IMG/VR virus record: IMGVR_UViG_3300012008_000013
Span: 1-42,772 of that record
Strand: one strand, 5' to 3'
Source: a virus
Length of the DNA: 42,772 bases
Made by a program: the position numbers and the translations under genes. The notes beneath the pieces were generated by a model. The model worked only from the letters and a program-made list of their open reading frames with translations, made no database searches and had not been told where the DNA came from. Shown here piece by piece: positions 14,006 through 31,828 of the stretch (position 1 is the first letter of the stretch; each line of letters starts with the position of its first letter).

Positions 14006-14493
14006 GGGACCAGCCTCCCGATCAAGGGAAGGTGCGCCGGCGTTCCCTTCGCCGCCTGCGGGTGGTCCGGGCCGATCGTCTTGCCGTCCGCGTCGAGAGC
14101 GAGCGGCCGCTGAGGGCCGCCGACGATCGGCCGGATGTCCCGAGCCTCGGCGGCATCCGGCTCAACGGCTGCGATGGCCGCCTCGATGGCTTTCCGTTTG
14201 CGTCGATGGCCGCTCGTCTTGTGGATGAGCGCGGCGATGTGCTTCGCGCCAGACGGTCCGGCTAGCTCGACCCGGAAGTCGTGGGCGGCACCGCCGAGCC
14301 ACTCGGGCCAGACCTTGGAGCCGATCGCGTTCGAGACGTTCCAGATGTCGGTGTGCTCGCCGCCGTTGGCTTCGTGGGCCGCGAAGTCCACGAGGCCGGT
14401 CGCCTCTCCGTGCTCGTCTCGGGCCACGACGTAGTCGAGGGTGGCGATGACGTTTCCGTCGGCATCATAGGCGAGCAGCGCGTGCGGGGTCAT
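14002..14493 (-). CDS. hypothetical late protein near tail genes, 163 aa
   Basis: ATG 14493 overlaps the previous stop by one base (TGATG). The first ~55 residues are a beta sheet with YDADGNVIATLDYVVARDE, then DIWNVSNAIGSKVWPEWLGG; the middle is a basic helix (KTSGHRRKRKAIEAAIAAVE). No named family. Position after minor tail proteins suggests a tail-tip accessory or a virion-associated factor. Confidence 0.65.
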   Translation of the reverse strand: MTPHALLAYDADGNVIATLDYVVARDEHGEATGLVDFAAHEANGGEHTDIWNVSNAIGSKVWPEWLGGAAHDFRVELAGPSGAKHIAALIHKTSGHRRKRKAIEAAIAAVEPDAAEARDIRPIVGGPQRPLALDADGKTIGPDHPQAAKGTPAHLPLIGRLVP

Positions 14494-15347
14494 CAGAACG
14501 CGACCTCGGTGAGAATGAAGTATCGGTACGTCCGGGCTACCTCGGTTCCGGCGAAGATCCCCGCCGCCGTGGTCGTGGCTTGTACGAATGTCTGATTCGT
14601 GCTGACCGTCTGCACGTCCAACGAGTACGAAGCGGTGACTTGGCCTTGGGTGGCCGAGCCCATCACCGAGTCCCAAGTGAAGTAGATCCCGGACCGCGCC
14701 CCGATTCCGGTCGAGTACTGGTCCAGATAGATGAAACTCGGCGCGTAGGTCATCCCGAGCAGGAGTGTCACCGATGCCTGAGTCGTCCCCGGACGGACGA
14801 ACGCAGCCGTCTGCACGGTCCCCGAGGCGCTGATCTTGAACATATCGCTCGTGCCGTCGATGATGACGGTCGTGCCGTCCGACGAAACCACCTTGAGGCC
14901 GTAGGTCGGCGTCGCACTGATCTGGCCGAGCGTCACCCGGACGTTCGTGCCATCGCTGACCTCGACGCCCTTGTTGGTGAGTTGCGTCCCGGCGTTGGCC
15001 GCAACGACGGCCGGTGGACTGCCCCCGAGCTCGCCGCTGATCGCCCCACCCGAGACTTGGAGGCCGTAGTCGCCCGAGGCGAGATGGCCGAGCGTTGCCC
15101 GGACCACCGAGCCGTCCGAGACTTGGATGCCCTTGTCGGTGAACTGCGCGCCAGCCGTGCCCGTGACGATGCTGGGCGGTGAACCGCTGATCGCGCCGGA
15201 CAGGTTCGGCCCGTTGACCTGGAGCCCGTAGCTCCCGTTCGACAGGAGCCCGAGCTGGACGCGGGAGGCCGTCCCATCGACGACTTCGAGGCCGATGTCG
15301 TCGGTGACGTACACGCCGGGAGAGGCGATCTGCTGAGGGGTGGCCAT
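14493..15347 (-). CDS. putative tail fibre / minor tail protein with internal repeats, 284 aa
   Basis: Coupled to the upstream gene by TGATG. Residues ~15-160 contain three imperfect ~50-residue repeats, each with a DG(T/S)xxRVxLG strand followed by YGL(Q/K)V, a beta-rich layout like trimeric fibre shafts. Residues ~170-284 form a distal beta domain (SGIYFTWDSVMGSATQGQV). Role in host contact is inferred from repeats and position. Confidence 0.7.
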   Translation of the reverse strand: MATPQQIASPGVYVTDDIGLEVVDGTASRVQLGLLSNGSYGLQVNGPNLSGAISGSPPSIVTGTAGAQFTDKGIQVSDGSVVRATLGHLASGDYGLQVSGGAISGELGGSPPAVVAANAGTQLTNKGVEVSDGTNVRVTLGQISATPTYGLKVVSSDGTTVIIDGTSDMFKISASGTVQTAAFVRPGTTQASVTLLLGMTYAPSFIYLDQYSTGIGARSGIYFTWDSVMGSATQGQVTASYSLDVQTVSTNQTFVQATTTAAGIFAGTEVARTYRYFILTEVAF

Positions 15348-16528
15348 CAGGCGCCTCCGATCTTGCCGCTCAGGCGTCCGGCGTCTGCGGCGACGAACTT
15401 CCACTGCGCCTGCATGTACTTGAGGCGCGTGGTGAACAGGACGGGATCAGACCCTGCGGTGATCGTGTAGCGGCGGAGGCCTGTCCCCGCGATGACGTCC
15501 ATGTCCACGGCGGTGATGGTGAGTTGCTTCGCGGAGTACCCGAGCGGCCCGTTGGTGATGGTGATGAGCTGACCCTTCGCCCACCCGTCGTAACCCGTGA
15601 CCACGAGCGTCACCGTGAGCGCGTTCTGACGGCGCTGGAACTCGACCGTGGCCGCCTGCAGCTTCGTTGCGGCGTCGACGGACTGCGGAGCGTCGAGGAC
15701 GGCCCAGCGCAGCGGGGAGCGCGCCACCGTGCCCGTCCCGACCTGCCACGTGTAGACGGCGCCCGAACCCAGCGCGGTCCCGCCGTAGACCCAGATCGCG
15801 TCGACGTCGGTGGCGCCCTGGTCCTGGACCGAGACGCGGGCCGGGACCGTCGTCGTGTAGTCCGGCGTGTCGCTGATGTTGTACGGCGCCGCGATGTCGC
15901 CGATCGCCATCGTGTGGAGCTGGCCGAGGTTGTCGACGTAGGCGACCGCGCCCTGGATGCCGGTCGCGGCGAGCACTTGGTCGATCGCGTTGCGCAGCGT
16001 CGTCCGGTCGTTCGGGATGCTCGCCGGCATGCCCGCATTCAGCACTTGGATGAAGCCGCCCGAGCCGAGTGCGCCGTCCTGCGCGAAGTTGGCCAGCAGC
16101 GACATGATCTCGGCCTGGTCGCTGCTGCCGTGGGCCCCGCTGTCCCAGGTCGTGATGGGCATCGCGAAGTCGAGCGATTCGCCGATGTGCGTGCACGTGA
16201 CCGCGATGTCGACCCACGGCCCGACGGTCGTCATGGCGAGGTTCTTGATGAACCCCTGGAAGAGGTAGCGGCCGCCGACCGAATCGACCCACAGGACGCG
16301 CTGCTGCTTGGCGATCCACGGCCGGACGGCGTTCGTGTGGTCATGGATGGTGAAGTCGAACGTCTGCGGGCCGCTGAAACCGGGATCGCGGAGCCGGTAC
16401 GTCTTCGCGTCCGCGCCCGACACGCCCCCGCTGACCTCGTTGCCGTTGATGAACAGCGGGAAGGGGAGCTGCGCGTTGGTCAGCGGGACCGAGAGCGCGA
16501 GTGGCTGCGCGAGGCCGAGGACGCCCAC
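15347..16528 (-). CDS. minor tail protein / baseplate hub-like, 393 aa
   Basis: GTG 16528 overlaps the upstream TAG (TAGTG). Begins with a beta-rich region (LPFPLFINGNEVSGGVSG), an OB-like stretch (RVLWVDSVGGRYLFQGFIKN), and later VTGYDGWAKGQLITITNGPL and RRYTITAG, patterns of siphovirus distal-tail/hub proteins. It follows the tape measure by one gene, where distal tail and hub proteins normally lie. Confidence 0.75.
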   Translation of the reverse strand: MGVLGLAQPLALSVPLTNAQLPFPLFINGNEVSGGVSGADAKTYRLRDPGFSGPQTFDFTIHDHTNAVRPWIAKQQRVLWVDSVGGRYLFQGFIKNLAMTTVGPWVDIAVTCTHIGESLDFAMPITTWDSGAHGSSDQAEIMSLLANFAQDGALGSGGFIQVLNAGMPASIPNDRTTLRNAIDQVLAATGIQGAVAYVDNLGQLHTMAIGDIAAPYNISDTPDYTTTVPARVSVQDQGATDVDAIWVYGGTALGSGAVYTWQVGTGTVARSPLRWAVLDAPQSVDAATKLQAATVEFQRRQNALTVTLVVTGYDGWAKGQLITITNGPLGYSAKQLTITAVDMDVIAGTGLRRYTITAGSDPVLFTTRLKYMQAQWKFVAADAGRLSGKIGGA

Positions 16529-17157: not shown

Positions 17158-19080
17158 CTAGATACTCCCCATGCCGGTGGACGTGCCGCGAAGGTTCAGG
17201 CGGTTGCCGAGATGCCGCTCGACGATGTCTGCGATGACGGACCCGTCGAGGTAGATGTGCGTGTGGACCGTGGTCGAGGATGAGCCCCCGACGCTGCCCA
17301 TCTTCGATTCCGGGATGACCCACTCGCGTTCGCCGGCCTCGCCGATGATCGCCAGCGTGCCGCCGGGACGAGGTTCGACGACGCCGCCGGATGCGTACTT
17401 CTTGTAGAGGTCCTGGTTGCCGACATAGCCGAGCTTCTTTGCCCCCGCGGTGAGGGCACGGGCCGGGACCGCGTTGATGGTCGCGGCCAGCGTCATCCAC
17501 GCGGCGATCTCCGTGTCGAGGGCCTTCTTCTCAGCGCCGTGAGCCGACGCCTCCTCCTTCATGAGGAGCTTGACGGTGTCCCCGACCGTCTTGGAGCCGG
17601 TGTCACCCGCCTGGGCCAGCCCGAGCAGGTAATCGGCCTGCGTCTTCTCCAGCGCCGGGAGCGCGGCCTTGGCGTCGGCGACCTGCTGTTTGGTCGACTT
17701 CGACGACGCGATGATCATCCGTTCCTTGGCGATCTCGGCGTTCGTGGCCATCAGGTTCTGGCCGGTGATGATCTTGTCGAAGGCGGCGTCCACGATGGTC
17801 TTGGCATCGCCGACGAGCTTGTCGCGGAAGGTGGCGAAGGCCCGTGCCGCGTTGGCGGCGCTGAGGATGATCTTGTTGGCCATCGACAGTTGTGCCGCGG
17901 CGACGTCCATGGACGACTGCACGACGCTGTCGGAGCCCGTGACCATGTCGTCGCGGGTCTTGCCCCGCAGGTGGTCCGCGGCGACACCGACGGCGGTCAA
18001 GTCGTCCGTCATCTTGCCGGTCGCGGTCTCGGTGGTGGCCGCCGTGCTGGTCATCGCAGACGAGATCCCGGCCGCCACCACGCCGACACCCTTGACGAGA
18101 TTGCCGAAGACGTCTCCGACGAACCCGATAGCGTTGGCGGCCTGCCCGACGAGGTTGCCGATGGCGTCGAACGCCGGGCCGAGGACGGTCCCGATGACCC
18201 CCGCCAACGTCGACGCGACGTCGATGACCGTGCCCAGGGTCCCGATCAGGAACGTGAAAAAACCCTCGACCACGGGACCGACGACCGTTGACAGCTTCTC
18301 CCACGCATCGCTGAGCTTGGCCTGCGTGGCCGCCAGCGGCGTCGTCGCCTTGCCGGTGTCACCGAGGGACGCGGCGAGCTTCTGGTTGAGGAGCGTCTGC
18401 CGCTCCGTCATGTCGCCGCCGGCCTTCTGTTCCTTGGTCAGCACCGGCATGATGATGCCGAGATCCTTGACCGCGCGCTGGTTGCCCATGATGGCCAGTT
18501 CGTACTGGCGGGCGGCGTCCGCGAGGCTGAGGTTGTGCGCCTTGGCGAGGCCCATGATGGGGTCGAGGGCGGTCTGCTGCGTCGCCAGATTCATGCCGGC
18601 TTCGGTCATCTTGACCGTGGCGTCGCGGTAGTCAGCGAGGGTGAAGCCGGCGGCTTCGAGAGTCGAGCGGTTGTCGTCGATGTGCTTGTTGAGGGCTTCG
18701 AGCGAGATGCCGTGCGCGTCACCCGCGGCCTTGAGCAGGGCCTCGGACTTGGCGACGTCCTGGTACGTCCGCTCGAGCAGCATCGCGCCGGCTCCGACCG
18801 CAGCGAGTGCTCCGATCACGATCATCACCGGGCCGCCGGCGAGGGACAGCATCCCCGAGGCGAGCCCCGCGATGCCGCCGCCGCCCTTGTTGCCGGCGAG
18901 CTTCGCGGCATCTGCCTCGGCCGTCTTGGTGGCCTTGGAGAAGCCGCCCATGTTCGTCGCGTTGGCGGTGCCTTCGAGGTGCTTGAGGTTGCCTTCCAGT
19001 TTGTGAAAGCCCTCGGATGAGAGGTCCTTCAGCGCGACGATGATCTCGAGCGCGTCGCCGCCGGCCAATCCTGCAAGCAT
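17158..19080 (-). CDS. tape measure protein, 640 aa
   Basis: Sets tail length and later enters the host envelope. N-terminal coiled-coil (residues ~15-70), a Gly-rich hydrophobic segment (LASGMLSLAGGPVMIVIGAL, ~95-125), a second hydrophobic block with Gly/Val runs (~290-360), alternating helical rich regions, and a C-terminal beta stretch. ATG 19080 overlaps the chaperone stop (TAATG); an upstream ATG at 19140 would read into the chaperone and is rejected. By the ~0.15 nm per residue rule the tail would be near 95 nm. Confidence 0.9.
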   Translation of the reverse strand: MLAGLAGGDALEIIVALKDLSSEGFHKLEGNLKHLEGTANATNMGGFSKATKTAEADAAKLAGNKGGGGIAGLASGMLSLAGGPVMIVIGALAAVGAGAMLLERTYQDVAKSEALLKAAGDAHGISLEALNKHIDDNRSTLEAAGFTLADYRDATVKMTEAGMNLATQQTALDPIMGLAKAHNLSLADAARQYELAIMGNQRAVKDLGIIMPVLTKEQKAGGDMTERQTLLNQKLAASLGDTGKATTPLAATQAKLSDAWEKLSTVVGPVVEGFFTFLIGTLGTVIDVASTLAGVIGTVLGPAFDAIGNLVGQAANAIGFVGDVFGNLVKGVGVVAAGISSAMTSTAATTETATGKMTDDLTAVGVAADHLRGKTRDDMVTGSDSVVQSSMDVAAAQLSMANKIILSAANAARAFATFRDKLVGDAKTIVDAAFDKIITGQNLMATNAEIAKERMIIASSKSTKQQVADAKAALPALEKTQADYLLGLAQAGDTGSKTVGDTVKLLMKEEASAHGAEKKALDTEIAAWMTLAATINAVPARALTAGAKKLGYVGNQDLYKKYASGGVVEPRPGGTLAIIGEAGEREWVIPESKMGSVGGSSSTTVHTHIYLDGSVIADIVERHLGNRLNLRGTSTGMGSI

Positions 19081-19325
19081 TAGTTCGGCCTCCCGTTCAG
19101 GGCACGCTGCATCTCGAAGTCGTTGACGGACTGCTGCCATTCATCGAAGAGCGCATCGGCGGCGGCGTAGCGCAGCCATGTCAGCACCACGCTGCGCGGC
19201 TTCGAGCGGATGAGGTCCGGGTCGAGGTTCATCCGGAGCGCGAGCCGCCAGAGCGCGTAGTCCGCTGGGACCGGGAGCGCGGCGATTCGCGCCCGGACGA
19301 GCTCGCCGGCGTCTTCGGCAAAGGG
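19080..19325 (-). CDS. tail assembly chaperone, -1 frameshift extension (gpT-like)
   Basis: This frame has no start of its own. It is entered by a -1 slip at CCCTTTG from the gene at 19229-19648, adding 79 residues for a 189-residue fusion (110 from the upstream frame). The extension reads RRPFAEDAGELVRARIAALP in the -1 frame and ends at TAA, overlapping the tape-measure ATG. Such G/GT pairs in the same place coat the tape measure during tail assembly in most siphoviruses. Confidence 0.85.
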   Translation of the reverse strand, partial: PFAEDAGELVRARIAALPVPADYALWRLALRMNLDPDLIRSKPRSVVLTWLRYAAADALFDEWQQSVNDFEMQRALNGRPN

Positions 19326-21411: not shown

Positions 21412-21836
21412 CAGGGCGTGTATGCGGCCGGGGCGTCGACCTCGACGCTCACGAGGAACTCGATGAGCTGGTAGGACTCGCTGCCGACGTCCTGCACCTT
21501 GTTCGTGTCCCACGAGGCGATGACGGCCTCGACCACGCCCGGGACGCTCAGGCTGATGTTCAGCCTGAAGGCCGCGATGACCAAGTCCAGCAGGTCGTTG
21601 ATGGCGACCTGATCGCGGTCGGCCGAAGAGATGCGGGCATAGAACAGGTGCATCGGGAAGACGATGAACATCCGCTCCCAGTTGCTCGGCGTGAGCTGGC
21701 CGCGCGGCGGCCCGATGACCACGAAGGGCGTGCCCGAGAGGCTGTCGAGCGGCGTGGCGCTGCCGCCGGCCATGCCCGAGACCGCCGCTGCCTTCGCGGC
21801 GAGCGCCGTGGCGATGAGGTTGTGCAAGCCCGCCAT
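21411..21836 (-). CDS. tail terminator-like protein, 141 aa
   Basis: Length and secondary structure fit tail-completion proteins: N-terminal helix (MAGLHNLIATALAAKAAAVS), a beta pair with Arg/Phe (WERMFIVFPMHLFYARISSA), a long helix (DLLDLVIAAFRLNISLSVPG), then strand EFLVSVEVDAPA. It lies between the connector and the gp10-like gene, with TGATG overlaps on both sides. Confidence 0.65.
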   Translation of the reverse strand: MAGLHNLIATALAAKAAAVSGMAGGSATPLDSLSGTPFVVIGPPRGQLTPSNWERMFIVFPMHLFYARISSADRDQVAINDLLDLVIAAFRLNISLSVPGVVEAVIASWDTNKVQDVGSESYQLIEFLVSVEVDAPAAYTP

Positions 21837-22684
21837 CAAATAATCCCGATGGATTTGTCGGTGTAGCGCTGAATGGTCCGCCAGTCGTTCGCGTCGAGCA
21901 GCAGCGAGATGGTCCGCGTGCCGTCCGAGCCCGTCGTCATCGAATCGCCACCGCCACCGACCCCGCGCCGGCGGTACAGCGTCGTGACGAGGTTGAGCGC
22001 GAGCGAGCTGATCTCGTCGGGGATGGCGGGCCAGCCGGGAGTACACGCCAGCCGGACATTGGCGAAGCCCGAAGCGAACGTCGTCGAGACGGCGCCCGAG
22101 GTCGGGAAGTTCGTCATCCACAGTTCGGTCGCGGGCCAGCCCGGTTCCGCGCCGCTCTGCGGCGTGGGCCGCAGATACCAGTCGGTGGTCGGGATGAGGC
22201 CGTAGTCGCCCCTCGTGTAGAAGGCGATCTCGAGCGAGGTTGCGGTCACGATGCCATCGGAGAGCGGCATCATCCGGCCGCCCTCCAGCGCGTCCCAGCC
22301 GTCGAGCACCAGGACGCGGCTGACGGCGGTGGCGTTGGCGTATGCCGCCACGAGCGGCGACTGCGGCGTGACGACGTTGCCCGCGATGGCGGCGACCGTG
22401 ATGTGCTCGTGCGTGCCGGTGACCGGCCCGAGCATGAGGTTGTCCCGCAGGTTCACACCCGCAGTCGAGGCGAGCGTGACCGCCGTGGATCCCGCCGTGC
22501 CGCCGGCGGTGACCGTCGTGGCGATCGCCGGGTATGGCGCGAGGACGCGGCCCGTCTTGGACTCGATCCAGCCGTTGACCTGGTTACAGAACGACTGGAG
22601 CAGCGAATCGTCGGCGGTGTTCGTGATGTTCAGCCGTTCCTTGGCTGGGAGCACCGCGGCGTATTGTCCGATGGCCGTGGGCAT
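21836..22684 (-). CDS. head-tail connector (gp6-like), 282 aa
   Basis: Begins with helices typical of connector adaptors (LPAKERLNITNTADDSLLQS, CNQVNGWIESKTGRVL) and ends with a helix plus strand carrying LNLVTTLYRRRG and DWRTIQRYTDKS, as in gp6/gp15-like connectors. An inserted beta domain at ~60-130 (GGTAGSTAVTLASTAGVNLR) makes it about twice the family's usual ~110 residues. Confidence 0.7.
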   Translation of the reverse strand: MPTAIGQYAAVLPAKERLNITNTADDSLLQSFCNQVNGWIESKTGRVLAPYPAIATTVTAGGTAGSTAVTLASTAGVNLRDNLMLGPVTGTHEHITVAAIAGNVVTPQSPLVAAYANATAVSRVLVLDGWDALEGGRMMPLSDGIVTATSLEIAFYTRGDYGLIPTTDWYLRPTPQSGAEPGWPATELWMTNFPTSGAVSTTFASGFANVRLACTPGWPAIPDEISSLALNLVTTLYRRRGVGGGGDSMTTGSDGTRTISLLLDANDWRTIQRYTDKSIGII

Positions 22685-22974
22685 CAGATGACCACCGACG
22701 GCAGAACCGTGAAGAAGGCCTCAGCATCCGACGCCGCCGTCCCGGTCGACTGCCAGCCGTAGAACCATGAGCCCGCGGTGGTGGGTGTCAGGTCGAAGTG
22801 GTAGTTGCCGATGGAATCCTTGACCACCTGCGAGCCCGCGTACGTGTAGGTCGTCTTCGTGCCGTTCGGGTCCTTGACCGTCAGTGCGATCGTCGAAGGG
22901 TCGGTGGCGGTGCCGGTGACCGTGAAGGCGACCGACATGCGGACCGGCTGGTTCGGGCTGTAGGCATTAGCCAC
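22684..22974 (-). CDS. small Ig-like virion protein, 96 aa
   Basis: GTG 22974 abuts the fibre-like gene's stop, with GGAGAT as ribosome-binding site. One beta-sandwich-like sequence (IALTVKDPNGTKTTYTYAG, then WFYGWQSTG), similar to phage proteins annotated as Ig-like or BppU-like. May decorate the capsid or support the adjacent fibre. Confidence 0.65.
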   Translation of the reverse strand: MANAYSPNQPVRMSVAFTVTGTATDPSTIALTVKDPNGTKTTYTYAGSQVVKDSIGNYHFDLTPTTAGSWFYGWQSTGTAASDAEAFFTVLPSVVI

Positions 22975-25725
22975 TTAGGAATCTCCCGGCTTGGCGGTGG
23001 TGGGTCCGGTATCGCTGATGCCGCCCGAGGCGGTCTTGGCGTCGGAGATGCCACCTGTGGCGGTCCCGACGTCGGAACCGACGGCGCTATTGATCCGCGA
23101 GTCGATCGCGACGGCGAGATTGACCGCGAAGTCGCGGATGGCGGCGAGGCCCTTGATGACGTGATCGGACGCCGTGACGGTCGGGTCCCACGCCTGCCCT
23201 GTACCTGCCGCCATGCCTGCGGCGAGCTTGAGGTGGAGCGCCGGGCTGAACGCCTGCGCGCTGCCGAGGGCCGCGATAACGTCGATCAGCTTGGCCCGTG
23301 CCACCGTCGGCTGGTTCGCTGCACCCGTTCCGGTCGCTGCTGTGACGGGGACGCCGGCGGAGACCGTGGGCTGAGTGGCGGAACCTGTGCCCGTTGCGCT
23401 GCCCGGAGTCGCGGCGACCTTGGCGGCGGCGGCGTAGGCCGCCCCGATCGCGGCCGCTGCCTGCACGTTGACGTTGGTCGCTGCCGAGGTCGAAACGGTC
23501 GGCTGGTTGGCGCTGGCCGTGCCTGTTGCGGCGATGGGCGTGATCGCAACCTTGGCGCTCGGGCTATTGGCCGTGCCTGTTGCTGCGGCTGCGCCCACGG
23601 ACAACGACGGACCGGCGCTCGGCTGATTCGCTGTCCCGGTAGCGGTCGCGACGCCGGACGTTGCCGCGACCTTGGCCGAGGGCTGGGCGGCGACGCCCGT
23701 GCCTGTCGCAGCGGTGACGGCGACATTGGTCCCGGACGACGTGTTGACCGTCGGCTGATTCGCCGCGCCTGTCCCGGCGGAGGCTTGCGGGGTTGCAGCG
23801 ATCGTCGGCGCGGCATTCGCAGCGACACCCGTTGCCGTTGCCGCTCCGACGCTTGGCATCAGCTTCGCGCTCGGTTGGCTGGCGATTCCTGTTCCAGTGG
23901 CCGTCGGGACAGGGACGCTGGCCGAACCCGTGACGCCTGGCTGATTGGCCGTACCGGTCCCTTGGGCTGCCGTGACCCCAGCGGCGATCTTCGTGGCGGC
24001 ATTGGTGGCCGCGCCCGTCCCCGTGGCGACACCGACCGACGGCATCGGCGTGGCAGTGGGCGCCTGGGCCGTGCCGATCCCGCTGGCGGACCCGACCGGA
24101 GCCGCGATCCCGATCGCAGGACTCGTGGCCGCTCCGGTGGCAGCGGCGGCGGCAACGTTGACCGTCGTGGCTGCGGCGGTCGAGACGGTCGGTTGATTGG
24201 CCGCGCCTGTCCCAACGGCTACCGCGACGGGGGCGGCCACCTTGGTCGATGGCCCGAGCGCGCTTCCCGTGCCCGTGGCGACCCCTACAGACGGCGCAGG
24301 GGCAACCGTCGGACCCGCTGCCGCTCCGGTGCCGCTGGCGGCTTGCACCACGGGCGACTGGCTCGTGGAAATACCGGGCTGGTTCGCGGTACCTGTTCCC
24401 GTGGCGACGGCGGCGCTCGGCTTGACGCTCGCGGCGGGATTGACGGCAGCCCCGGTTCCCGCGGCAGCGGTGACCGCCACGTTGGTCCCGGTGGCGGCGG
24501 ACCATGTCGGCTGGTTCGCGGCACCCGTGCCTGTGGCGCTGCCGACCATGATCGAGACGCTGACTCCGGGCTGCCCGGCTGCGCCTGTTCCGGCGGCGAC
24601 GGTGACGGTGACGTTGACGCCCGCGACCGGTGTCCACGCGACGACCATCCCCATGAAACAGACATCGGCGATGCGGGTCGAGGCCGTGACTTGCGTCACG
24701 CGCATGACTGGAGCCGTGCCGAGCGTCACCGATGGGCTGGTCGTCAGTGTGCCAAAGGAGGTCTTCCAGCCCGTCGGAAACGTCCCCCCGGCGGCGCCGG
24801 ACCAGAACGCTCCTGCCGTCCCACCGGCTCCAAGGGCGATGTTGGTGATGGTCGGGTTGCTCGCGACGCCGACCGTGCCATGCTTCGATGAGGTCGTGAC
24901 CGGGGCGGCCGTGGCGATGACCGGCTGGACGGCGAGCACCGTATCGCCCGCGCCGACGCCCGCTGCGCTGTAGGTCGTCATCGTGGCGTCGTAGTTCGAA
25001 CTCGCCGCCGAGGTGGCGTTGCGTATCTGGCTGGTGTTCGTGCCGCCGTCCGCGACGCCGACCGGCGGCTTGTTGTCCACTGCTGCGAACAGGCTCGACG
25101 TTCCGCCTGCTCCGCCGACCCAGCCCGTCCCGATGGCGCTGTCCGCTGTCGGGACGAGCATGGCGACCTTGGACGGGGCGAGGAAGCCCGCGCTGTCCAC
25201 GATGATGTCGTCGATGTAGATGTCCGCCGCCGAGGCTTCGGTTCCGCTGAAGCCATAGTTCCCGGCGCTCGCTACTGCGACCGTCCCGTTGACTGCGGTC
25301 GCACCGTTGATCTGGAGGACATCGACGGATGTCCCCGCTGTCTGTCGCCAGCCGACCCAATACCACTGCCCGGTCGAAAGAGCCGCCGATGCACCAAGAG
25401 AAGTCGCGCCACTGAAGACTTCCAAGGTGCCCGAGGGATTGAGCTTGACGTTGCATCCGCTACCCGACACACCGAAGATGACCCGCGCGACCGATGGCAA
25501 GGTCGCGATATAGAGTCCACAGTGCCCGAACGCAAAGGTCGCATTATTCGACTGTGCGGACCCACTCGCGCCCGAGGCCGGATTGCAGCGAAGTGAGGAT
25601 GTCCCTGTCCGTGCCTGCGTCTGGCTGATAGCAGCCGTCCCATTGAGGACGACGAACTGGGCGGTGACCGCTTGGTCGAGGAGGATGCTCCGACCCTCGA
25701 ACCCGGTCATCAAGGTGACAGCCAT
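22975..25725 (-). CDS. repetitive fibre-like virion protein with N-terminal lectin-like domain, 916 aa
   Basis: Largest gene in the window. Residues ~1-190 resemble a LamG/concanavalin-like lectin (TLPSVARVIFGVSG, QWYWVGWRQTAGTSVDVLQI, then IYIDDIIVDSAGF). A second beta region follows (~190-365) with MLVPTADSAIGTGWV. Residues ~365-850 are 23 imperfect ~21-residue repeats built on ATGTGxAxQPTV, very Ala/Thr/Gly rich. The last ~65 are a helical/Gly tail (IRDFAVNLAVAIDSRINSAV). It is encoded between the capsid and the connector, not with the tail-tip genes, suggesting a head fibre or capsid-surface adhesin. A tail appendage is possible. Confidence 0.75.
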   Translation of the reverse strand: MAVTLMTGFEGRSILLDQAVTAQFVVLNGTAAISQTQARTGTSSLRCNPASGASGSAQSNNATFAFGHCGLYIATLPSVARVIFGVSGSGCNVKLNPSGTLEVFSGATSLGASAALSTGQWYWVGWRQTAGTSVDVLQINGATAVNGTVAVASAGNYGFSGTEASAADIYIDDIIVDSAGFLAPSKVAMLVPTADSAIGTGWVGGAGGTSSLFAAVDNKPPVGVADGGTNTSQIRNATSAASSNYDATMTTYSAAGVGAGDTVLAVQPVIATAAPVTTSSKHGTVGVASNPTITNIALGAGGTAGAFWSGAAGGTFPTGWKTSFGTLTTSPSVTLGTAPVMRVTQVTASTRIADVCFMGMVVAWTPVAGVNVTVTVAAGTGAAGQPGVSVSIMVGSATGTGAANQPTWSAATGTNVAVTAAAGTGAAVNPAASVKPSAAVATGTGTANQPGISTSQSPVVQAASGTGAAAGPTVAPAPSVGVATGTGSALGPSTKVAAPVAVAVGTGAANQPTVSTAAATTVNVAAAAATGAATSPAIGIAAPVGSASGIGTAQAPTATPMPSVGVATGTGAATNAATKIAAGVTAAQGTGTANQPGVTGSASVPVPTATGTGIASQPSAKLMPSVGAATATGVAANAAPTIAATPQASAGTGAANQPTVNTSSGTNVAVTAATGTGVAAQPSAKVAATSGVATATGTANQPSAGPSLSVGAAAATGTANSPSAKVAITPIAATGTASANQPTVSTSAATNVNVQAAAAIGAAYAAAAKVAATPGSATGTGSATQPTVSAGVPVTAATGTGAANQPTVARAKLIDVIAALGSAQAFSPALHLKLAAGMAAGTGQAWDPTVTASDHVIKGLAAIRDFAVNLAVAIDSRINSAVGSDVGTATGGISDAKTASGGISDTGPTTAKPGDS
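23180..24600. repeat. 23 tandem degenerate repeats (~63 bp units)
   Basis: On the minus strand the units encode ATGTG(T/A)ANQPTV-like peptides at regular spacing of about 21 codons. Unit boundaries are diverged at DNA level, so this is an old expansion rather than an assembly artefact of identical repeats. Recombination between units could change fibre length. Confidence 0.85.
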
Positions 25726-26118
25726 CTAGCCGACCAGGAACGGCGCTGTCTGGTCGAGCAGGTCTGAGGGACCGGGGTAGACGTACAGGTACGCCGTACA
25801 GGTCGCCGGGGCGAGATAGTCGGGGTCGTTCGGGTCGATCCACGGCGACGAGCCGCCGCCGAGGATGAACGTGTCGCTCGGCAACGCGAGTTGCCCGTAG
25901 ACCGTTCGTCCATCGACGACGCACGCGAGGTAGACCAGCGGGTACTGGTAGCCCTTCAGGTTGGCGGTGGTGGCGCTGAACGTGACCGCGCCGCCGATGG
26001 TGGCGTCGAGACTCGTGATGGTGAGCGTGCCGGTCGGTGTCTTGGGCGCCGCCGAGACCGGCGAGGCGATGAGCAGAGCGAGCGCGAGGCCCGCGAGGAT
26101 GGCGCGCATGGTGTTCAC
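25726..26118 (-). CDS. secreted Ig-like protein with signal peptide, 130 aa
   Basis: GTG 26118 (GTGA overlap) or ATG 26109. Residues ~4-23 are a classic signal peptide (MRAILAGLALALLIASPVSA) followed by APK, a likely cleavage. The mature part is a single beta sandwich (LTITSLDATIGGAVTFSATT, YPLVYLACVVDGRTVYGQLA) with two Cys that could form a disulfide. A secretion signal in the middle of a virion operon is unusual. Confidence 0.65.
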   Translation of the reverse strand: MNTMRAILAGLALALLIASPVSAAPKTPTGTLTITSLDATIGGAVTFSATTANLKGYQYPLVYLACVVDGRTVYGQLALPSDTFILGGGSSPWIDPNDPDYLAPATCTAYLYVYPGPSDLLDQTAPFLVG

Positions 26119-26597
26119 AGCGTGATGGCCGCCAGCCCGGTACCCGCCCAGACCAGCGTCAGCGTGCCGAGGGTCACGGACTGCGTGCCACCGAAGTACA
26201 GGTAGCAGATGCCCTGCTTGGCGACCGGGGTGGCGATGGTGTCGCTGTAGATCAGGGTCCCGAAGGCCGCCGCGATCGTGGTCACGGCGTTGGCCGAAAC
26301 GGTATCGACCGCATCGAAGGTCACGACGTTGGTCGCAAACGTGCAGGCCGGGGTGACCAGCGGACGGCCGACGGTCGGCCAACCGACCGGGGCCGAAGTG
26401 CCGGTGTCGGTCAGGTGACCGGCCGCCCAGACACCGACGCCGTACGCGCTCGAGGCCGAGGCCACGGTCTGATCCGGAGTCACCGACGTGTCAAACAGCG
26501 CGGCGTTCATCGTGTCCGCGTTGATGTCCATCAGGGTCGTCTTGGCGAGTGAATCCGTGATGAATGAGGAGAAGATCTTCGAGGCGGTCCACGCCAT
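26115..26597 (-). CDS. putative virion structural protein, 160 aa
   Basis: ATG 26597 follows AAGGGA. N-terminal helix (SKIFSSFITDSLAKTTLMDI), then beta strands (WPTVGRPLVTPACTFATNVV; GICYLYFGGTQSVTLGTLTL). Proteins of this layout recur after capsid genes in actinophage-like genomes. Probable capsid decoration or head completion protein. Confidence 0.6.
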   Translation of the reverse strand: MAWTASKIFSSFITDSLAKTTLMDINADTMNAALFDTSVTPDQTVASASSAYGVGVWAAGHLTDTGTSAPVGWPTVGRPLVTPACTFATNVVTFDAVDTVSANAVTTIAAAFGTLIYSDTIATPVAKQGICYLYFGGTQSVTLGTLTLVWAGTGLAAITL

Positions 26598-27725: not shown

Positions 27726-29162
27726 CTACGGCCGGATACCGACCCAGACTTCGACGGCGGTCGGCTGCAGCGCGACGATCGCGGCGCGTCCGATGGCGCG
27801 GGCGGCGGTCTGGTCGGAGTTGAACGCGACGTGCTCGCTGTACGCCACCTCGATGCCCTGCCGCTCGATGATGAGCAGGTTGGCCCGGTTGGTGATGACA
27901 AGGTCCGTCGTGTCGGCCGAGGTGCCGACGGTGCGCGTGGTCAGCATCTGGTTGCTGAAGAAGAAGTCGATCTGGCCGAGCAGCACGGCATTGGGACCGG
28001 TTGCCGCGCCGCCGAACTGGCCGGCGATCTGACCGTTGTAGAGGCGCGGGGCGTTGTAGCCGCCGGCCGCCCACAGGATGTAGTTGTTGGTGGTGTCCTT
28101 GATCTTCGACAGCGTCTGCATCGTGCGCGGGGCGCCGTAGGCGATGTCCGGCTCGACGTTCACGCCGCGCAGGAGGTAGGTCGAGTCGATGACGTTGTCG
28201 ATGGTTGGGGTGCCGCCGTTGGCGCCCATCGCGGGTCCGGCTGTGACGCCGGCGTAGTTGATCAGCCCGGTGATCTCGTTGCCGGTGCCGACGCCTTCGA
28301 GGAACTGCTGGTCCTGCTTGAGGGCCACGTCCCGGACCAGGGTGTTGGCGAGGAACTCGTTCCACGCCGGCGTGGCGTCGGCGAGCAGCTCGTTGCTGTA
28401 CAGCCGGTAGCCGTACTGCTTCTTGATGGTGATGGTTTGCTGGGCGAGGGTCGCGTCCTGCGGCGTCAGGGTGCCCGCTTCTGCGGCCACCGAGCCACCG
28501 GCCGGGACGGACTCACGCGGCATGACCACGATGTTCGACGCGGCCGGCATCGACTCGACACCGGAGCGACGGACGGCGGTCATGCTGACCAGCGCGTACT
28601 GGAACTTGTCCTGCATGTACTGGGTCGGCACGAGCGCGCCGCCGGCACCGACCGACGCCTCGCTCATGGCCCGGACGCCGGATTCGATGCGGGCGAGGTA
28701 GGTCGCCTCGCGCGCCGCGGGCTTCTCACCCATGGCGTCGAGGACCTCGATCATCTCTTCGCGGGTCTTGGGCCAGATCAGCGAACGGGTGGACTTGCCA
28801 CCGCTGCTTTCGAGGAACGGGTCCTTCTCGTCGTCGCCGTCGTTGCCGGCCTTGTCATAGCCGAAGACGGACCGCGCGGCCTCACTGAAGTCGCGCTCGA
28901 ACTCCTGTGACTTGCGAAAGCCGCCGCCGTAGGTGGCCCGCATCGCCGTGCCGAGGCGCGGCAGGCCGTAGCGCTGGCGGTTGTACGCCGGCACTTCCAC
29001 GACGCCACCAGGGCGCGCGGCGGCATCGACGGTGTTGAGGGCGCGGACGGCCGAATCGGCCGCCTGCCGGTTGCTCTCCTCGATGAACGCCCGGACGGTC
29101 GGGTTGGCGAGGAGCTGGTCGGGGGTGAGTTCGGTACCGCTCTGCGCGGCTGCTTCGGGCAT
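27726..29162 (-). CDS. major capsid protein, HK97 fold, 478 aa
   Basis: ATG 29162 follows GGAGAC; a longer in-frame start (29195) lacks one. Residues ~1-120 are a helical scaffolding-like delta domain with Ala/Glu runs (EESNRQAADSAVRALNTVDA). The HK97-like core begins near ~160 (SGGKSTRSLIWPKTREEMIE) with typical N-arm, then spine and A-domain strands (ITIKKQYGYRLYSNELLADA; GVGTGNEITGLINYAGVT). Ends in a conserved DTTDLVITNRANLLIIERQG strand set. Immediately preceded by the protease gene, as in HK97-type heads. Confidence 0.92.
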   Translation of the reverse strand: MPEAAAQSGTELTPDQLLANPTVRAFIEESNRQAADSAVRALNTVDAAARPGGVVEVPAYNRQRYGLPRLGTAMRATYGGGFRKSQEFERDFSEAARSVFGYDKAGNDGDDEKDPFLESSGGKSTRSLIWPKTREEMIEVLDAMGEKPAAREATYLARIESGVRAMSEASVGAGGALVPTQYMQDKFQYALVSMTAVRRSGVESMPAASNIVVMPRESVPAGGSVAAEAGTLTPQDATLAQQTITIKKQYGYRLYSNELLADATPAWNEFLANTLVRDVALKQDQQFLEGVGTGNEITGLINYAGVTAGPAMGANGGTPTIDNVIDSTYLLRGVNVEPDIAYGAPRTMQTLSKIKDTTNNYILWAAGGYNAPRLYNGQIAGQFGGAATGPNAVLLGQIDFFFSNQMLTTRTVGTSADTTDLVITNRANLLIIERQGIEVAYSEHVAFNSDQTAARAIGRAAIVALQPTAVEVWVGIRP

Positions 29163-29183
29163 GTGGGTCTCCTGGGAATCAAA

Positions 29184-29209
29184 GAACCCGGCCAACGGGG
29201 ACCGGGTTC
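29184..29209 (-). terminator. hairpin between protease and capsid genes
   Basis: Stem GAACCCGG/CCGGGTTC (8 bp, 10-base loop) followed on the minus strand by TTTGATT, 22 bases before the capsid ATG. Resembles a weak intrinsic terminator or attenuator. Together with the stem at 27688-27719 it isolates the capsid transcript. Confidence 0.45.
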
Positions 29210-29231: not shown

Positions 29232-30290
29232 TCAGCCGGTCAGTCGCTTCGCAGCGGCCTCGCCAGCCTTCCGGGCGCTTTCGAGCAGCTCGGCGCGCAA
29301 CGCCACGGGGTCGGCGCGTTCCTCGCCCGACACGAGTCGGAACGCGGGCAGCGGGTCACCTGAGCGGGCAGCGTCTTCGCTGTCGTTCGTTTGATCATTG
29401 GCGTGAGCGGCAGGGCCGAGCGCCGCGATGTGGTCATGGGCGGCGTCGATGTGGCCCTGGTCGGTCGCGCTGTTGCGGGCACCGGCACGGGTGCCGGACA
29501 TGTAGCCCATGCCCATCGTCGAGTCGTCCTCGTCGTCGGGTGTCCCGACCTCGGCACGTTCGGCCGTGATCCACTCGGACAGGCTGTCGATGGACGTCTG
29601 GATCATCGCGACCTGATCGGGTTCGTCCGCCTCGGCCGACAGGAGATAGAGCAGCGTGCCGAGGGCCCCGGCGCCCATCGCGGCATCACTCGCGGCCTCG
29701 GAGTAGGCGCGCACCGCCGGCTCGACGACCGCGTCCAAGGGCTTCGTGGCCAGCGCCGCGACGATGCGCAGCGATGCCCCGGTATCGGCGGCGCGGGTGG
29801 CAACCTGGGCGAGCGGGTTGGATTCGGTCGGCGTCAGCGCCAGTTCATAGGCTGGCCAGTCGAGGATCTCGCCGGTGTGGTTGTCGATGCGCACCGAGTG
29901 CTCGGCCGAACCGCCCGACAGACCGAGGTGGCCGCCGTCGAGGAGCGGCTTGAGCCGCGTCTCGTAGTAGGCGCCGCGCTTGTCGATCTGCGCCTGGACC
30001 CACACGCCGTCGGCGTCCATCCGCACGGGCGACCAGCCGCCGACCCGCGCGAGGCCGATCTCCGGGTCGAAGCCGTGGTGGAAGGTGTTGGGCCGGATGA
30101 ACAGCGGCGATTCTGCCCGGGTGGCGCCCGGTGTCACGTCGGGGAACATGTCCCAGTGGAAGTCGGTCCGGGTCGAGTAGAAGGTGCCGTACGTGTCGCG
30201 ACTCTTGAAGGGGAACGCAAGGCCCTCGATCGTGCGCACGTCGTCGGTCTCGGCCACGGTGCGGACCGCGGACGGCTTCTGCTTGGTCAT
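29232..30290 (-). CDS. prohead protease (capsid maturation), 352 aa
   Basis: HK97-family serine protease. Motif order is right: IEGLAFPFKSRDTYG, later RPNTFHHGFDPEIGLARVG (putative His), and GHLGLSGGSAEHS with the conserved Ser region, then WPAYELALTPTESNPLA. The C-terminal ~140 residues are acidic and helical, possibly a fused scaffold. ATG 30290 overlaps the portal stop (ATGA). Confidence 0.88.
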   Translation of the reverse strand: MTKQKPSAVRTVAETDDVRTIEGLAFPFKSRDTYGTFYSTRTDFHWDMFPDVTPGATRAESPLFIRPNTFHHGFDPEIGLARVGGWSPVRMDADGVWVQAQIDKRGAYYETRLKPLLDGGHLGLSGGSAEHSVRIDNHTGEILDWPAYELALTPTESNPLAQVATRAADTGASLRIVAALATKPLDAVVEPAVRAYSEAASDAAMGAGALGTLLYLLSAEADEPDQVAMIQTSIDSLSEWITAERAEVGTPDDEDDSTMGMGYMSGTRAGARNSATDQGHIDAAHDHIAALGPAAHANDQTNDSEDAARSGDPLPAFRLVSGEERADPVALRAELLESARKAGEAAAKRLTG

Positions 30291-31828
30291 GCTGGTACCT
30301 CGATGCGCGCCGCGATGGTGGCGGCCGAGTCACGCCGACGCAGGCCGGCCTCGATAAGGGATTGGATGGGCTCGGGAACGTCGCTCCCCACGAGGAGCGG
30401 CACGTCGAGCGGCCGGGAGGGGTCGTTGACCCATGCCTTCACGGCGGGGTGGCGATACAGCGCCTTGCCCCACGCCCGGAGCGAATCGGGAACGGCCGTG
30501 CCGTCGCCGTACTGCTCGCCGGTCGCGCCCTCGATCGGTTCGAGGCCGGCGTTCAGCGACGGGTCCAGCGCCGAGAGCGCATTCGGATCGAGCGATGCCG
30601 GGTCCGGCCGGATGGCGACCGCCGTGCGCGGGATCGGCCGGTCGCCCCACGGGACGTCCTTGCCGAGGCGGAAGTGGCGGCGCATCTCGTTGGGCACCAC
30701 GGCCTGCGCGTAGATGCCCGCGAGCCATGCGTTCCATTCGACGTCCCACGCTGGGCGCAGGGCCTCGATATCGCTGTAGTCGAACGCCACCACGAGGCGG
30801 CGGCGGGTCGGGTCGAAGTCGGGGACGAGCCAGTTGTTGAGTGTGTCGGCATAGGCGTCGAGGTCCGGGATGACCGTGCCGCGCCAGAACAGCCGCTCGG
30901 CTTCGCGCAGGTTGCCATAGACCGTGTTCTTGTCATCGTCGCCGGCGAGGACGAGCGGTACGCCGAGCGCGGCGCAGATCGCCATCCGGCTGACCTTGCC
31001 CGTGGCGAGCATCTCCGACGCCTGCGGTGTCAGCGAGATGCCCTTGAACTCGAGGCCCGCCGGCATGACCGGGACCTTGCCCTTCTGCTTGGGTCCCCGG
31101 AGCGCCCGCAGGGTGCGCCGGACGAGGTTCTCGTCCTGCTTGGCGAACTCGGCATCCTTGGGGATCTGCCAGTAGCCGGGCGGGACGCTGTCGTTGTAGA
31201 CGAAGGCGTTGGTCCGGTCGGCCCACGCCTTCGAGGTGCTGATCTGCGCCCCGATCGACGACAGTGGCGACAGGCCGCGCAACGGGTTCTGCATGTTGGG
31301 CGTCTTGAAGTGGACGATGTCGCGCGGCTTGTAGACCTCCTTGGCCGAACCAGCAGGCTGGTGCTCGTAGGTGGTGACCATGCGGCCGTTGTCGCTCTTG
31401 ACATCGACGTCGGGCGCCCGCAGCCAGTACAACTCCTGCGGCGGGCCGCCCAGCCGGCCGCGCACCTTCCGATAGAAGCACTCGCCCCACACCGCGCTCG
31501 ACGCCGCGGTGTACGCCTTGAGGTCGGCGCCGGTCATGTCCACCGGGTTGACGTAGTCGAGCAGGTATTGGAGGTCGTCGCCTTCGGGCGAGGGCTCGTC
31601 GGTCGCGGGGATGAGCTCCTTGCCCGCCTTGACGTAGACCTTGAGCGGTGTCCCCTGGGCGGCCTGGTAGCGCCGGCGGACGCACGAGTAGACCCACGCC
31701 TCGTCGGCCGGCGCCTTGGCGAACTCGATCGCGGTCCGGTAGCTCGAGGGCGTGTCGCGGTCGATGCCCATGAACGCGAACCACTGAGCGCTCATATCTC
31801 GGTATGCGGGCAATCCGTCAAAGGTCAT
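30287..31828 (-). CDS. portal protein, 513 aa
   Basis: Dodecameric DNA entry ring. Residues ~40-75 (AKAPADEAWVYSCVRRRYQA) begin the portal clip domain; WGECFYRKVRGR, YWLRAPDVDVKSD and the loop DIVHFKTPNM are characteristic, and the stem helices with NLREAERLFWRGTVIPDLDA occur at ~330. The length is typical (~450-520). ATG 31828 overlaps the previous stop. Immediately downstream of the terminase, upstream of the protease. Confidence 0.92.
   Translation of the reverse strand: MTFDGLPAYRDMSAQWFAFMGIDRDTPSSYRTAIEFAKAPADEAWVYSCVRRRYQAAQGTPLKVYVKAGKELIPATDEPSPEGDDLQYLLDYVNPVDMTGADLKAYTAASSAVWGECFYRKVRGRLGGPPQELYWLRAPDVDVKSDNGRMVTTYEHQPAGSAKEVYKPRDIVHFKTPNMQNPLRGLSPLSSIGAQISTSKAWADRTNAFVYNDSVPPGYWQIPKDAEFAKQDENLVRRTLRALRGPKQKGKVPVMPAGLEFKGISLTPQASEMLATGKVSRMAICAALGVPLVLAGDDDKNTVYGNLREAERLFWRGTVIPDLDAYADTLNNWLVPDFDPTRRRLVVAFDYSDIEALRPAWDVEWNAWLAGIYAQAVVPNEMRRHFRLGKDVPWGDRPIPRTAVAIRPDPASLDPNALSALDPSLNAGLEPIEGATGEQYGDGTAVPDSLRAWGKALYRHPAVKAWVNDPSRPLDVPLLVGSDVPEPIQSLIEAGLRRRDSAATIAARIEVPA

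Follow-up and report, generated by a model that had tools for sequence, protein, structure and literature searches.

A lectin-plus-repeat protein encoded in the head module of an uncultured phage as a candidate capsid-anchored fibre

Capsid fibres have mostly been noticed by microscopy, and the genes that encode them are hard to name. The locus considered here raises the question of what a 916-residue protein, combining a lectin-like N-terminal part with a long tract of repeats, is doing among the head genes of a phage, and where on the virion it would act. An earlier note on this DNA had proposed a head fibre whose length varies by recombination between repeats. We used structure prediction, profile searches and comparative genomics to investigate this proposal. 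We favour a capsid-anchored adhesive fibre as the probable, though far from secure, identity of the protein.

The locus and its gene order

The window, by which we mean the whole stretch of 42,772 bases that was analysed, is a complete IMG/VR viral record (IMGVR_UViG_3300012008_000013). Its structural genes run in the order portal, 352-residue protein, major capsid protein, several small genes, the 916-residue gene, a 96-residue Ig-like protein, adaptor and tail genes. The features that bear on the argument are as follows (labels of the type L024 denote related viral contigs, described below):

30287-31828, minus strand: portal protein (PF04860, E 2.2e-46)
Between the portal and major capsid genes, in the usual protease slot: 352-residue protein with no family match
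27726-29195, minus strand: major capsid protein (Phage_capsid, PF05065, E 4.5e-28)
26115-26597, minus strand: 160-residue protein, 54% identical to L024:2721-3194
25726-26109, minus strand: 127-residue ORF with an apparent Sec signal peptide by hydropathy, directly upstream of the candidate fibre gene
22975-25725, minus strand: 916-residue lectin-plus-repeat protein, candidate head fibre (ORF, structure prediction)
25171-25725, minus strand: residues 1-185 of that protein, ConA-like jelly roll (AlphaFold2 pLDDT mostly 80-97; VIA matches)
24628-25170, minus strand: residues 186-366, second beta domain, proposed virion anchor (structure model, conservation)
23149-24597, minus strand: residues 377-859, 23 repeat units, proposed shaft (consensus around AxGTGxANQPtv)
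22975-23148, minus strand: residues 860-916 and stop codon, C-terminal tail (structure model)
22684-22974, minus strand: 96-residue Ig-like protein (phrog_442, E 0.014; phrog_17896, E 7.6e-6)
21836-22684, minus strand: head-tail adaptor/connector, 282 residues (Phage_connect_1, PF05135, E 5.6e-5; phrog_442, E 8.3e-9)
17158-19140, minus strand: presumed tape measure, 660 residues, named by position and appearance only
14493-15404, minus strand: tail-fibre candidate, 303 residues, with repeats of about 54 residues (phrog_35697 tail fibre, E 0.0027; repeat z=13.4)

The 916-residue ORF is real: it opens with an ATG and occupies exactly the interval given above on the minus strand, a strand that the earlier note had left out. 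Both neighbouring genes abut it, with a TAG followed by its ATG on one side and its TAA followed by a GTG on the other. Its placement between capsid and connector was also described correctly, given the PF05065 capsid gene on one side and the Phage_connect_1/phrog_442 adaptor on the other. An antisense open frame of 697 codons (22798-24891, plus strand) crosses the repeat tract and probably arises as a side effect of GC-rich codon usage; of the two, it is the minus-strand protein that has homologues.

Searches of Pfam, PHROGs, NCBIfam and PDB yielded no sequence-family match for the 916-residue protein; phrog_14065 and phrog_2448, both of unknown function, match 12 and 11 of 24 family members, respectively, and not the window protein. 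L024:2721-3194, to which the 160-residue protein is similar, likewise matches a family of unknown function (phrog_644). As no relative was recovered by tblastn with the window protein against GenBank phages (E up to 10), and none of 49 pattern matches in 84,980 bacterial and archaeal genomes was confirmed, no host is assigned. The best cultured-phage matches of the portal, among the matches listed, are less than 30% identical, placing the window phage in a deep uncultured lineage.

The 96-residue Ig-like protein is similar to the N-terminal portion of head-tail adaptor family members. The adaptor thus seems to be carried in two genes, the 96-residue product corresponding to the N-terminal and the 282-residue product to the C-terminal part of phrog_442, and in L013 and L021 a single gene spans both. 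Further downstream, the tape-measure profiles PF20155 and PF10145 have no match in the window. The tail-fibre candidate lies downstream of the presumed tape measure, and its match to a tail-fibre PHROG is weak.

A predicted jelly-roll domain, a second beta domain and a repeat tract

AlphaFold2, run on the full 916-residue chain with 23 relatives, gave a confident structure over much of residues 1-366 and none over the repeats. In the predicted model, residues 1-185 match Cip1 (VIA Z 17.1, rmsd 2.5, 172 residues aligned) and the lectin domains of trans-sialidases (VIA Z about 15.5), with Foldseek E-values down to 5e-7. This region is therefore predicted to belong to the ConA-like class of two-sheet jelly rolls, and "lectin-like", the term used in the earlier note, holds at the level of the fold. 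Among the structural matches of the full model are also glycan-binding domains from bacterial toxins and from several enzymes unrelated to one another; such matches reflect the common jelly-roll fold and hence say nothing about function.

The repeat tract was delineated by scanning the protein with a position-weight matrix. This located 21 regularly spaced cores at residues 377-839, a stray match at residue 259 in the lectin part being left out. Degenerate units, at 757 and 819, occupy two gaps of double length, so that the earlier count of 23 units of about 21 residues was borne out. Spacing between units is 20, 22 or 24 residues, once 18, with a mean of 21.0. Identity at lag 84 within the repeat part reaches 0.33 (z=21 versus shuffles of the same residues), and at lags 20, 44, 64 and 84 it is 0.27-0.30, the highest of 200 shuffles being 0.20. 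Units in register share a mean amino acid identity of 40%, versus 15% in random phase. Among 14 ORFs of the window that were tested, periodicity with z>6 was seen in just two, namely this gene and the tail-fibre candidate.

Mean DNA identity between units is only 49%, and Tandem Repeats Finder reported no DNA array over the tract; thus the tract appears old and shows no sign of recent expansion, an option that we accordingly rejected for the window. The earlier suggestion of length variation by recombination stands in part. Unit number does differ between the window (23) and L008 (17, likewise of the ATGTGAA type), and the near-identical contigs L005 and L006 differ completely in the first part of their separate repeat gene, but the window units are too diverged in DNA for recent unequal crossing-over.

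The repeats are rich in alanine, threonine and glycine and poor in bulky residues. They yielded no confident monomer model, pLDDT being about 33 in the full chain and 47 for five units alone, a prediction made from an alignment with six other repeat segments. In the five-unit model short strands pair up within several units, at a low confidence, and we do not trust this model. The term "shaft" accordingly rests on sequence. By inference from these models, the tract may be flexible or may fold only as an oligomer. A collagen-like fibre was discarded as a candidate, since the window units are about 20 residues long and do not follow a Gly-X-Y pattern. A helix is predicted at residues 852-883 (pLDDT about 63-76), starting just ahead of the C-terminal tail, and helix and tail might serve as an oligomerisation part.

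A lectin-repeat cassette in related phages

A profile-guided search recovered 26 related viral contigs. Merging of identical or near-identical contigs (L010/L011/L012, L016/L027 and L005/L006) left 23 distinct loci including the window; as L014 and L015 end no more than 935 bases from the lectin, 21 of these are informative for what lies beside it. A tract with a period of 18-22 residues (the best lag being 18-22 or one of the multiples 40 and 44) is fused to the lectin or lies just downstream of it in 20 of these 21. Fusion is seen in the window and L008, and the remaining 18 loci have a separate downstream repeat gene. Joining the lectin and repeat ORFs of L005 in frame was considered and rejected, as a plain TAA is followed by a GTG start. 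Across loci the repeat sequences vary widely and the period varies little. The sole exception, L007, has instead an 885-residue collagen-like gene just upstream (L007:3380-6037, a Gly-X-Y protein between portal and lectin), which apparently stands in for the repeat protein; no other contig carries an adjacent Gly-X-Y gene. No match in GenBank phages was found for the L004 repeat gene or the L009 and L014 lectins.

The two N-terminal domains diverge at different rates. In 20 aligned lectins mean pairwise identity is 30% for the jelly roll and 53% for the second domain, the latter showing the higher similarity in 182 of 190 pairs. Comparisons of the window with L004, L016 and L020 show the reverse, the jelly roll being more similar than the second domain, as expected if the two domains have been shuffled. 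L005 and L006 share 98.4% identity across the 5.7 kb that close with the lectin gene, and 94.7% beyond position 9298 of L005, with no long match in between. In L006 this unmatched stretch holds a small gene together with the opening part of the repeat gene, whereas the L005 repeat gene starts directly behind the lectin stop codon; both contigs are metagenomic, so that an assembly error is possible.

Two further kinds of gene accompany the cassette. In 14 of 27 loci (13 of the 26 related contigs and the window), or 10 of the 23 distinct ones, the lectin gene is immediately preceded by a small Sec-signal-like ORF, as counted by a hydropathy test that takes the start codon of highest hydropathy and was run without a shuffled control. 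Examples include L003:6780-7121, L005:6726-7124, L008:4557-5003, L010:3913-4296, L016:5584-5991, L020:9656-9997 and L024:3194-3541, among others, and that of L020 has a weak Ig-like match (Big_3_5, E 0.002). T5 Llp masks the receptor of its phage, and receptor masking is one idea for a secreted protein encoded amid head genes. By eye, several genes resembling glycosyltransferases or nucleotide-sugar enzymes adjoin the lectin cassette in or near the structural block of L004 (969-9488) and L003 (5384-6121 and 13380-14615), making glycosylated virion proteins possible.

Cultured relatives were reached by tblastn with the L003, L004 and L026 lectins, which match the Streptomyces phages Hiyaa, Keanu, Galactica and Spocter. 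In all four of these phages (here called Hiyaaviruses) a homologue of about 1,100 residues is encoded between the major capsid protein and the head-to-tail adaptor; alignment of the lectin family with those of Hiyaa, Keanu and Galactica by hhalign gave a probability of 99.9 and E 5e-31. Hiyaa gp13, like Keanu gp13, Galactica gp11 and Spocter gp13, thus occupies the same head slot and has a homologous N-terminal lectin. It is 1,110 residues long, and its repeats of about 20 residues are C-terminal as in the window protein (lag-20 identity 0.19), but extra sequence lies between lectin and repeats. An alignment of the Hiyaa and window repeats made by eye was discarded, as the best score of the window/L008 repeat matrix was negative; only the 20-residue period is shared. 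Homologues in this group are annotated as minor tail protein (Hiyaa gp13 and Galactica gp11) or hypothetical. In open-access literature we found no paper on this lectin-repeat family by title or abstract, and none naming Hiyaa together with "Streptomyces phage".

A more distant branch of the lectin occurs in tail modules, namely in the Sphingomonas phages Kharn and Lucius, the Lucius protein being annotated "putative tail fiber"; Brevundimonas phage Delta has a protein similar to that of Kharn, also in its tail module. The top BFVD structural match, A0A6M3T9Z9 (about 400 columns, TM by target 0.48), is likely the Kharn protein QJD54523, both being 527 residues long. The jelly roll of QJD54523 is related by profile to the present one (probability 88, E 3e-6), but its gene lies at the end of the tail module and no such repeats were seen in it. 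Setting the Hiyaaviruses against Kharn, Lucius and Delta, the lectin module appears as an adhesin-type part that is placed in either a head or a tail setting; in the present family that setting is the head block.

A probable capsid-anchored fibre and its alternatives

The positions of the cassette bear on where the protein would assemble. The adaptor (phrog_442) was detected in eight of 18 contigs searched, window included, and in each of the eight the lectin gene precedes the adaptor gene on that strand. A tape measure was detected by PF10145 in four of the 18, again with the lectin upstream in every case, and by PF20155 in none. The gene is in the head module in the window and in all four Hiyaaviruses, and a place behind the tape measure, in the tail-tip module, was found neither in the Hiyaaviruses nor in the four contigs. 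Portal genes were detected in 21 of the 26 related contigs and capsid genes (PF05065) in 11, the lectin preceding the capsid gene in eight and following it in three; in L014 and L019 a PHROG major head protein precedes the lectin. The exceptions are L026 (by profile) and L022 (by eye), where the cassette is just upstream of the terminase gene and not between portal and adaptor, and L023, where no head gene was recognised near it.

These positions weigh on the view that the protein is a receptor-binding lectin that assembles on the tail or tail tip, its gene merely sitting in the head module. The tail modules of Kharn, Lucius and Delta and the tail annotations in Lucius and Hiyaa speak for such an adhesin, but the closer relatives, at 31-62% identity, and the Hiyaaviruses have the gene upstream of adaptor and tape measure wherever these were detected, and a gene resembling a tail fibre is already present at the customary position in the window; we regard it as unlikely, though the most serious of the alternatives. 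A fibre of the neck or collar (whisker), at the head-tail joint beside the adaptor, would fit the window and the Hiyaaviruses, where the next gene downstream is the adaptor or the split-off N-terminal part of it, as well as L013, L017, L020 and L021, where the adaptor follows the cassette. Since the cassette precedes the capsid gene, and so stands apart from the adaptor, in eight of the 11 contigs with a detected capsid, the adaptor neighbourhood is not conserved and a neck fibre seems improbable. Slightly less probable still is that the protein is no fibre and that its repeats form a disordered, Ala/Thr/Gly-rich extension of the capsid surface with little adhesive role, for instance in stability, hydration or as a decoy. 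The paucity of bulky residues, the failure of modelling and the free change of repeat sequence between phages agree with this, but a plain linker would need no period, and one of about 20 residues has been kept in 20 of 21 loci despite the sequence change; moreover, the repeats are linked to a lectin-type domain.

We therefore return to the capsid-anchored adhesive fibre. The head fibre of the earlier note gains from the conserved head-module position in distant relatives, including cultured Streptomyces phages, from the carbohydrate-binding-type fold of the N-terminus and from the presence of a distinct gene resembling a tail fibre downstream of the presumed tape measure; it loses from the distant lectin relatives in tail modules, and the head location is something we infer. 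Counted in its favour are the adaptor and tape-measure order, the Hiyaavirus slot, the lectin fold, the lectin-repeat linkage, the faster divergence of the jelly roll, the L005/L006 difference and the separate tail-fibre candidate; counted against it are the "minor tail protein" annotations, the tail modules of Kharn and Delta, the positions in L022, L023 and L026 and the unmodelled repeats. In such a virion component the conserved second domain would fix the protein to the surface of the head, a glycan on the cell or in the environment would be bound by the jelly roll or by the distal end of the shaft, and the 23 repeats would form that extended shaft, probably oligomeric or flexible. The fibre might thereby let the phage make an initial, reversible contact with the cell or its environment, ahead of commitment by the tail tip. 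Most relatives would build it from two genes of one cassette, lectin and shaft, which are fused in the window phage and L008.

A broader reading, which we offer as a long shot, is that these loci represent a widespread and undescribed adhesion cassette of exchangeable parts: a glycan-binding domain, a shaft with a period of about 20 residues and, in about half of the loci, the small Sec-exported upstream protein. Lectin and shaft would have been repeatedly fused, split and swapped, with the shaft sequence free, its period fixed and its fibre fold so far unsolved, and the exported protein could mask the same receptor outside the infected cell, in the manner of T5 Llp. More immediately, a cassette of lectin and 20-residue repeats among head genes offers a sequence signature by which candidate capsid fibres might be recognised in phages that have not been cultured, and through the cultured Hiyaaviruses it is open to tests on laboratory Streptomyces.

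A review covers head fibres and decoration proteins with a role in attachment (PMC7602432), which are mentioned elsewhere as well (PMC7150772). In phage 7-7-1, capsid fibres reportedly make the first contact with flagella, the proteins composing them being reported as unknown (PMC12796354). The phi29 gp8.5 head fibres, SPP1 gp12 and T4 Hoc are located on the capsid surface and believed to help the phage attach to cells or carbohydrates; they differ from the window protein in having other folds (helical, collagen-like, Ig-like), and the passages describing them mention no ConA-like lectin (PMC7602432). The collagen-like nature of SPP1 gp12 (PMC7602432) recalls L007, in which a collagen-like gene apparently stands in for the repeat gene. 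A precedent is gp76 of the Caulobacter phage phiCbK, which has been put forward as the head filament that attaches to the host ahead of the tail (PMC3556154). While gp76 is 2,799 residues long, with a central lectin, and would form one filament at the apical vertex, it resembles the window protein in setting a ConA-like lectin within a long, Gly/Ala-rich repetitive protein, and its gene, as in the window, is nearer to the head than to the tail genes (PMC3556154).
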